IMG/VR virus record: IMGVR_UViG_3300033153_006492
Span: 1-64,000 of that record
DNA: 64,000 nucleotides
Reading direction: 5' to 3' (one strand)
From: a virus
The notes under the pieces are model-generated. The model did no database searches. It saw only the letters and a list, made by a program, of their open reading frames with translations, and had not been told where the DNA came from. A program made the position numbers and the translations under genes. Of this stretch, positions 4,746 to 46,532 are shown one piece after another. Within the stretch, counting starts at the first letter, position 1. Every line of letters begins with the position of its first letter.

Positions 4746-4936
4746 ACCGATATAGCTCAGTTGGTAGAGCGCCACCGCGAAAGGTGGATTCACGAAGTAT
4801 TATGATGTTCCTGCAGGGATTGATTGATGATTAGTGATAGAGGATTTAATCCTGAACACATAATAATTGTACAATAAAAATGTTAGTATGGAGATAAAAA
4901 TCTGAAGAGTCGTAGGTTCAAGTCCTGCTGTCGGTA
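4746..4936 (+). tRNA. tRNA-like gene with 124-nt insertion
   Basis: Acceptor ACCGATA (4746-4752) pairs with TGTCGGT (4929-4935). U8, a canonical D arm and the anticodon stem CCACC/GGTGG follow, with a six-base loop GCGAAA lacking U33. The T arm GTAGG-TTCAAGT-CCTGC is at 4912-4928. Between them (4788-4911) lies an insert closed by an 11-bp bulged helix (4799-4810 with 4854-4864). Isotype uncertain (GAA or CGA). Confidence 0.55.
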
Positions 4937-5044
4937 CTATACAATGAAAGCATAATTATATATGACCCGATGCCTTATCCGGGTGGAAGATTAATCATTC
5001 TGAGTAAGATGCATACGAAAGGAAATGGTAGATAAGGTAGATAT

Positions 5045-12974: not shown

Positions 12975-13049
12975 CTGCTTGTAGCTCAGCCCGGTAGAGC
13001 GGAGAACTCTAAATTCTCGCCAGCGTCGGTTCGAATCCGACCAAGCGGA
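12975..13049 (+). tRNA. Amber suppressor tRNA (CUA)
   Basis: Acceptor CTGCTTG/CAAGCGG, U8, D arm GCTC/GAGC, anticodon stem GAGAA/TTCTC with loop CTCTAAA: U33 is followed by anticodon CTA (13009-13011), which reads UAG. The T arm GTCGG-TTCGAAT-CCGAC is perfect; discriminator A. The charged amino acid cannot be told. TAG is used as an apparent true stop by about ten genes here, so suppression is probably partial or stage-specific. Confidence 0.85.
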
Positions 13050-13074
13050 CGACAAGGATAGGAGAATAAATACA

Positions 13075-16170: not shown

Positions 16171-16330
16171 AGGGTCGGAGATGCAACGTTACCTCAGACG
16201 AAGCTGAAGAGAAGGTGAGTTTTCATACTTTACTCACTAACCATTCTATAAAACGAAGCCGAAAGGTTAGAATGGTCAGTATAAGTGTCTTGATAATAAC
16301 AAACAAGTAAAAAGTCATTGATATAACAAT
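16171..16330 (+). ncRNA. Structured RNA upstream of TROVE gene (RNA-1)
   Basis: No ORF. Starts with GGGTCGG and contains GTTACCTCA. Helices: TTACCT/AGGTGA (16189-16194, 16213-16218), TGAGT/ACTCA (16216-16236) and a perfect 9-bp ACCATTCTA/TAGAATGGT (16240-16276). It shares GGGTCG..GTTACCTCA..CGAA with RNA-2 at 16405. Candidate Y-type RNA partner of the TROVE protein; inferred from position and paired elements. Confidence 0.45.
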
Positions 16331-16404
16331 GTAAATAAAAACGTGGAATAAACTACGGAATAAACAATTCTTCGTTGGTCATAATTTATCCTAAAGCATT
16401 TTAA

Positions 16405-16500
16405 ATGGGTCGCTGGTACAGGGTTACCTCAATCGAAAACTGCGGCGTTCGCGCCGTAGGTGAAGCAGGACGTGATGCTCGTCAATCTCCTTGTCCACTT
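16405..16500 (+). ncRNA. Structured RNA upstream of TROVE gene (RNA-2)
   Basis: GGGTCGC... with an outer helix ACAGGG/CCTTGT (16418-16423, 16489-16494), an 8-bp hairpin CTGCGGCG-TTCG-CGCCGTAG with a stable UUCG tetraloop (16440-16459), and GACG/CGTC (16469-16483). It shares 5' sequence features with RNA-1. Y-RNA-like function is a hypothesis from its location. Confidence 0.5.
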
Positions 16501-16528
16501 TTATCCGTTTATATTTTTAACATTACAT

Positions 16529-16602
16529 TGCGGGGTAGAGCAGTCTGGTAGCTTGCTTGGCTCATAACCAAGTGGTCGCTGGTTCAAATCCAGCCCCCGC
16601 AA
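16529..16602 (+). tRNA. Initiator tRNA-fMet (CAU)
   Basis: TGCGGGG...CCCCGCA with anticodon arm CTTGG-CTCATAA-CCAAG and T arm GCTGG-TTCAAAT-CCAGC. Sequence and layout closely follow bacterial initiator tRNAs (AGCAGTCTGGTAGCT in the D arm). Position 1:72 is T:A rather than the bacterial mismatch C:A. Only two G:C-type pairs close the anticodon stem, not the usual three. Phage initiator tRNAs are uncommon. Confidence 0.85.
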
Positions 16603-16634
16603 CTTTATAGGTCTTTCACAATATAATAATACAA

Positions 16635-16965
16635 GTCCTCGTGGCCGAATAACACGTATAGGCGTGTAAGGCATTGTAGCCCCAGCTGAAAAGCTTGGGG
16701 AGCGAGTTACGAACTTGGTGCGGATAAGGTGGCGACGTTCTGGAAGTGAGATCAACTTTTGGGGTTGAAATAAACAGAAACGAGCGCACGATTGCAGAAA
16801 TCCCCTAATACTTGGCATATAGCTACTATCTGTGATTATGAAGGTACAATCAATCCTTCCACTATTTAAAGATAAATTTCGACGGAGATTTATTGGTGTG
16901 ACTGAAAAATCCAAGTCCAGGCGTACGTTTGTGGGTAGATGCGAATCCCACCGAGGCATTTTTTT
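16635..16965 (+). ncRNA. tRNA-like RNA, candidate YrlA-type Y RNA
   Basis: CCTCG (16637-16641) pairs with CGAGG (16952-16956). U8, a D stem GCC/GGC and a T arm GTGGG/CCCAC (16931-16951) run directly into the acceptor strand as in a tRNA. The D loop carries an inserted hairpin ACACG/CGTGT and the T loop is 11 nt. About 240 nt of structured RNA replaces the anticodon arm, including CCCCAGCT-GAAA-AGCTTGGGG. It ends in TTTTTTT. Bacterial YrlA RNAs have tRNA-like domains and sit next to TROVE genes, as here. Confidence 0.5.
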
Positions 16966-16979
16966 ATTAAAGTAACAAA

Positions 16980-17045
16980 ACATTATTATTGGGTCGTGAA
17001 TGATGGTCATCGAGCATTCGTAAAAAACATCATTCAACATTTATC
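16980..17045 (+). ncRNA. Short GGGTCG hairpin RNA
   Basis: TGAATGATG pairs perfectly with CATCATTCA (9 bp) and GGGTCG precedes it, as in RNA-1 and RNA-2. It may be the 5' leader of the TROVE transcript or a further Y-type RNA. Confidence 0.35.
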
Positions 17046-17064: not shown

Positions 17065-17097
17065 AACCCGCCAGATATTTCTGTGCGGGTTTTTTTG
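17065..17097 (+). terminator. Rho-independent terminator
   Basis: ACCCGC...GCGGGT with inner CAGA-TATT-TCTG, then TTTTTTT. It closes the RNA cluster just before the TROVE gene. Confidence 0.85.
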
Positions 17098-46168: not shown

Positions 46169-46504
46169 GGGAGCGTTCATGGATTCGATCAGAGGATAAA
46201 AGTAAATGACAGCAATACGTTGGGAAACGTAAAATCTAATAAAGAATAATTAACAACTCATATCAACTTGCTGCGTAATTAATTGCGTAGTCGTCAATCC
46301 ATCTTTTGTCGAGAGGTGGAAATTGACGCCGTATTCGACAAGAACTTTTGGTGGTAGGTCAAAACAAAAATATCTACTCGTGGGTAATAAATTTTCTTGT
46401 TTATTTTTAGTTTATTTTACACGTTAAAATTTAAGAATAAACTATTATTGTAGAAGTCATTTAAGTTTGCTTTTGAGACGCGGGCTCGATTCCCGCCGCT
46501 TCCA
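46169..46504 (+). ncRNA. ssrA: Transfer-messenger RNA (tmRNA)
   Basis: The acceptor GGGAGCG (46169-46175) pairs with CGCTTCC (46497-46503), with discriminator A; CCA is not encoded. The 5' 'GGATTCGA' and 3' 'GACGCGGG-CTCGATT-CCCGC' match conserved tmRNA ends. Helix 2 forms between AAATGAC (46204-46210) and GTCATTT (46456-46462). The tag ORF ends NNSYQLAA-stop (46252-46278) and helix 5 CTGCG/CGTAG follows. A pseudoknot (CGTCAAT/ATTGACG stem, loop TTGTCGA with TCGACAA) comes next. It rescues stalled ribosomes and tags products. Confidence 0.93.
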
Positions 46505-46532
46505 CTTTTAATTTAATACAAAGGAGAATTGA

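Follow-up and report, generated by a model that had tools for sequence, protein, structure and literature searches.

Bacterial Y RNAs of the YrlA type are Ro-bound RNAs that carry a tRNA-like module. The manA RNAs (Rfam RF01745), on record as riboswitch candidates since 2010, have been proposed to act as cis-regulators, perhaps as riboswitches (Weinberg et al. 2010, PMC2864571). The window considered here, a 64,000-nt stretch of phage DNA from a 78.7-kb virus record, encodes upstream of a Ro gene an RNA with a tRNA-like look that, judged from sequence comparison, is probably a divergent and long manA-like RNA rather than a standard member of RF01745.

The virus record has 23 tRNAs (ARAGORN), one tmRNA and one Ro (TROVE) gene, the neighbor to which a first-pass annotation had drawn attention (Table 1). 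No plausible plus-strand gene was found between 16160 and 17140, and the stretch is a row of non-coding RNAs that runs up to Ro. Three of these RNAs, Y RNAs A to C, each have a 5' end of GGGTCG and a 3' end of TTATC(C), motifs that are also found upstream of Ro genes in other phages; none of the three received an Rfam label. A relative is represented by two IMG/VR contigs, L001 and L002, whose Ro is 66% identical to that of the window, and by inspection the closing stems of Y RNAs A to C are changed on both sides in L001 with pairing kept. The order of tRNA-Met and Y RNA B is not alike in the two phages. Both have a T run after the outer stem P1 of the RNA under study (16959-16965 in the window, directly 3' of P1) and a strong terminator 3' of Y RNA C and before the Ro start codon (z -4.8 in L001). 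Promoter-like sites are no more frequent across the region than in shuffles, and none was found in the interval from tRNA-Met to the manA-like RNA.

The tRNA genes of the window include a tRNA-Leu (TAG) with a 104-nt insertion at 4746-4937 (ARAGORN, introns allowed), in addition to an uninterrupted tRNA-Leu (TAG) at 83-156, and a tRNA-Pyl with anticodon CTA at 12975-13050 (ARAGORN), possibly an amber-reading tRNA of the phage. The phage tmRNA at 46169-46507 scores 110.8 bits with Rfam, was missed by ARAGORN, and lacks an encoded CCA end. In two other phages a tmRNA directly adjoins the Ro gene (L009, 4995-5416; L064, about 2566-2870), a further link between Ro and a tRNA-like RNA in phages. 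Related phages (L013, L020 and L023) have a conserved intergenic element, GGGGAATAGATAGTTAGACTATACCGCTGGACTCG ... GGATTCCCC and then a T run, that is located upstream of the Y RNAs and looks like another structured RNA.

Table 1. Features of the non-coding RNA row, of the manA-like RNA within it, and of the adjoining Ro gene (window positions).
Feature	Position	Strand	Remarks
Y RNA A	16172..16391	+	GGGTCG..GTTACC ... TTATCC; L001 homologue with covarying closing stem
Y RNA B	16407..16506	+	recurs in L001
tRNA-Met (CAT)	16529..16603	+	
manA-like RNA, P1 to P1, 320 nt	16637..16956	+	L001 homologue and manA core
P1 5' strand CCTCG (acceptor-like)	16637..16641	+	pairs with 16952-16956; P1 covaries across manA-like RNAs
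UG linker	16642-16643		
P2, D-like arm	16644..16672	+	GCC 16644-16646 / GGC 16670-16672, enclosing CGAATAA, hairpin 16652-16667, TAAG
P3, with hairpin 16680-16700, cap U-GAAA-A	16674..16705	+	RNAalifold with L001
P4 and expanded interior, at the place of the anticodon arm	16709..16928	+	16709-16730 pairs with 16901-16928
Hairpin with loop CGACGG, inside P4	16871..16894	+	similar to the manA GACG-loop hairpin before P1
P5 (T-like), a 5-bp hairpin whose 11-nt loop is TAGATGCGAAT	16931..16951	+	
P1 3' strand CGAGG	16952..16956	+	abuts P5, no gap
Y RNA C	16991..17045	+	recurs in L001
Intrinsic terminator, 3' of Y RNA C and 5' of Ro	17065..17096	+	fold z -6.1, conserved in L001
Ro gene (TROVE + vWA_Ro60), 562 aa	17142..18830	+	

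The layout described in the first-pass annotation, a 5-bp acceptor-like stem with D-like and T-like arms, was recovered as P1, P2 and P5, together with the extra hairpin in the D loop, the T loop of 11 bases, and the replacement of the anticodon arm by a folded domain that includes the GAAA-capped hairpin. The D-like and T-like arms are 258 nt apart, and the long P4 encloses additional hairpins. Folded singly, the window sequence has an unremarkable energy (z -1.15), so that one sequence alone is no proof of the fold. A possible pseudoknot between GGGG (16761-16764) and CCCC (16802-16805) is without covariation evidence because both of its sides are invariant, and a contact of the tRNA-elbow type joining the loop of the P2 hairpin to that of P5, which was sought by eye, was not supported.

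A homologous RNA is located at L001:3300-3640, in the same kind of locus. RNAalifold on the window and L001 together gives 79 pairs, 28 of them with both sides changed, as compared with an average of 9.3 and a maximum of 17 in 300 column shuffles that kept identical and differing columns in place; the alignment energy lies at z -10.6 relative to column shuffles. The D-like stem is GCC/GGC in the window and ACU/GGU in L001, and the T-like stem is GUGGG/CCCAC in the window and GCGGG/CCCGC in L001, with the 11-nt loop of P5 identical in the two phages and P1 kept in part in L001 (UUUUG/CAAUU, three of five pairs). On this comparative evidence, the predicted fold is real. Independent copies with the window-type interior number only two. 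No additional copy came up when about 80 phage Ro loci were searched with a profile of the RNA, the exact P5 pattern yielded chance matches alone among viral contigs besides the relative (L004 and L007), a pattern derived from the interior yielded a chance match alone (L092), and a stricter 5' pattern had no match.

In a permissive scan against all Rfam families, the L001 RNA was aligned over the entire manA model (20.1 bits, E 0.0037), and the window RNA matched via its 5' core (12.0-14.0 bits, E 0.87 at 12.0 bits), in an alignment that covers the P2 core and misplaces the 3' core because the interior is long. Neither RNA reaches the gathering cut-off of 55.2 bits. Both possess the core of manA, which consists of P1, UG, (A/G)C-YGAAUAA-hairpin-UAAGG, and a P5 loop of UA..AAU abutting P1, and neither matches the interior of RF01745, a P3 with three hairpins and a short P4 hairpin. 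Because the core is common but the score and the interior fall outside the model, the RNA is filed as manA-like and not as a standard member. The junction and linkers of the window RNA are those of ten bona fide cyanophage manA RNAs (124-193 bits). In these the outer stem has 5 bp and is followed by UG and by a 2-bp stem around UGAAUAA, a hairpin and UAAGG; after two more domains, a hairpin of 5 bp, whose loop has 11 nt, lies directly against the outer stem. The tRNA-like look is therefore a property of the manA class. In manA RNAs and many manA-like relatives, a GACG-loop hairpin precedes P1. This hairpin is absent just 5' of P1 in the window and L001, where the CGACGG-loop hairpin is found inside P4 instead and may represent the manA hairpin in a relocated position. 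A descriptor of the core matched the window and L001, with 3 matches in 12.8 Mb of shuffled sequence; it had been loosened to admit the letters of the window, and so counts as supporting evidence only.

Scans recovered more than 100 manA-like phage loci. One core pattern by itself matched 75 viral loci, many of which have the P1/P5 pairing but different stems and interiors. Among the core pair cells of 21 representatives, 99% hold a canonical pair, a figure that holds partly by construction since P1/P5 pairing was used to place many of the 3' ends, and 9 of the 12 pairs are changed on both sides, with covariation that no shuffle matched. P1 and P5 covary across the set, and the only compensatory change in P2 comes from the window. 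Long manA-like RNAs that share the core are also found in L234 (296 nt) and L260 (299 nt). In species genomes, the core pattern had 4 matches, no more than the chance expectation, one of which agrees with the descriptor (L297, a metagenome bin); the manA-like class therefore appears to be mainly viral, and it appears to be larger than the Rfam model captures. Six manA-like RNAs that are not of the cyanophage type (L224, L231, L229, L240, L282 and L285) have their 3' ends 20-27 nt upstream of an ATG that is served by a ribosome-binding site, and the proteins encoded downstream of them are small.

The first-pass annotation had likened the RNA to YrlA, and the adjacent Ro gene, the surrounding Y RNAs and the tRNA-like look are what would be expected if it were a YrlA-type bacterial Y RNA, bound by Ro and provided with a tRNA-like module. 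However, YrlA is circularly permuted, with the T arm before the D arm, a standard GTTCGA T loop and a Ro motif, whereas the window RNA runs from the D-like arm through the interior to the T-like arm and has an 11-nt, non-standard loop. No Ro-binding motif was found within the RNA of the window or of L001; the motif sits in the three neighboring Y RNAs, which are separate from it. Ro-linked YrlA-like RNAs do exist in phages, with the Ro motif, then the T arm, then the D arm in seven clear cases at six loci (L010, L011, L032 twice, L048, L060 and L072), and four further pairings in the opposite order proved, when the sequences were read, to be a normal tRNA downstream or arms from two different RNAs. 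A YrlA identity, rejected on arm order, T loop and Ro motif alike, is thus very improbable, and what stands of the earlier proposal is the tRNA-like layout and the TROVE neighbor. The acceptor-, D- and T-like elements could also be those of an intron-bearing or degenerate tRNA, or of a second tmRNA, and when run on the window at half its threshold, ARAGORN does report a tRNA-Asn carrying an intron of 256 nt. This call is gone at normal thresholds and does not recur in L001, a conserved anticodon arm is missing, the T-like loop has 11 nt, and Rfam gives no tRNA, group I intron or tmRNA match for the RNA in a phage that has its own tmRNA. The tRNA and tmRNA readings hardly merit credence, including the simply spliced tRNA that the first-pass annotation had set against its own proposal. 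The covariance-model and tag-reading-frame tests led to rejection of a tmRNA identity, and the Rfam scan to rejection of group I introns and other families in Rfam.

The likeness to manA might instead have arisen by convergence, in which case the RNA would belong to an unrelated new class with a similar five-way junction. Scores below the cut-off, the dissimilar interior, and the existence of just two independent copies with that interior are consistent with this explanation, but the unpaired letters GAAUAA, UAAGG and UA..AAU are common to both RNAs, the linkers and the helix order are the same, and other manA-like RNAs have long interiors too, which makes convergence improbable. A different possibility is that the RNA is a manA-type cis-regulator, a riboswitch-like leader over Y RNA C and Ro for which the T run would serve as a conditional terminator. 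The T run right after P1 in both phages accords with this explanation, as does the proposed role of manA RNAs as cis-regulators or riboswitch candidates (PMC2864571); furthermore, many manA-like RNAs are positioned directly before a start codon, just upstream of the ribosome-binding site, and cyanophage manA RNAs have their own promoter, beginning directly after a TTGACA/TATAAT sequence. In the window and L001, however, the strong terminator separates the RNA from Ro, and what follows the RNA first is a Y RNA rather than a gene. A free-standing RNA is favored over a leader because the tRNA/Y-RNA unit is closed by this terminator before Ro, and because no promoter-like site precedes the RNA after tRNA-Met. 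As a general rule the leader is disfavored as well, because relatives occur within tRNA arrays: a 148-nt manA-like RNA (L150, L168, L239, L261 and L275, and also L232 and L283) is located 10 nt before tRNA-Pro and, where covered, 30 nt after tRNA-Gly, and the S-SSM7 copy of manA abuts tRNA-Gly. For the window RNA, a leader function is rather unlikely.

The RNA is thus best regarded, with reasonable though incomplete confidence, as a divergent manA relative of ~320 nt that derives from a tRNA-Met/Y-RNA transcript and is free-standing rather than a leader of Ro. Its predicted fold, the core held in common with manA, and its locus are borne out by comparison between phages. The RNA would form a five-way junction of P1, the D-like P2, P3, the expanded P4, and the T-like P5 abutting P1, an arrangement that would give it the tRNA-like look. 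It would be made within the tRNA-Met/Y-RNA transcript, receive its 3' end by trimming or termination at the T run 3' of P1, and act as a free-standing RNA and not as a Ro leader. We infer transcription, trimming, and a partner or regulator role in phage tRNA/Ro RNA metabolism, and one may conjecture that the RNA works alongside Ro or tRNA enzymes. That one tRNA/Y-RNA/Ro unit contains a long relative, and that others lie in or beside tRNA genes, suggests that the leader reading may not fit all members of the class, as does the tRNA-like junction common to manA RNAs. It is conceivable, if doubtful, that manA-like RNAs are a broad class of tRNA-like stable RNAs in the tRNA and Ro/Y-RNA machinery of phages, and not riboswitches, with the window copy as a long form working alongside Ro. 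A direct test is now possible of whether the RNA is free-standing and whether it binds Ro or a tRNA enzyme, its putative partners.

Among other known RNAs, tmRNA has tRNA-like ends and a large structured interior, as does the window RNA, but tmRNA differs in its tag reading frame and standard T loop. Similarly, T4 rnaC resembles the window RNA in its non-permuted tRNA-like 3' part, its large interior, and its being encoded with phage tRNAs, but its T arm is a standard one (GTTCGAATC) and it lacks the manA core; when tested as a manA relative, it gave no match. The RNA of the window and manA RF01745, both of them phage-borne, share the 5-bp outer stem, UG, the P2 core, the five-way junction and P5. 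They differ in the length of the interior (about 260 nt in the window RNA versus about 110 in RF01745), in P3 (one hairpin versus three), and in setting, since the window RNA lies between tRNA-Met and Y RNAs whereas manA RF01745 lies before a metabolic gene.
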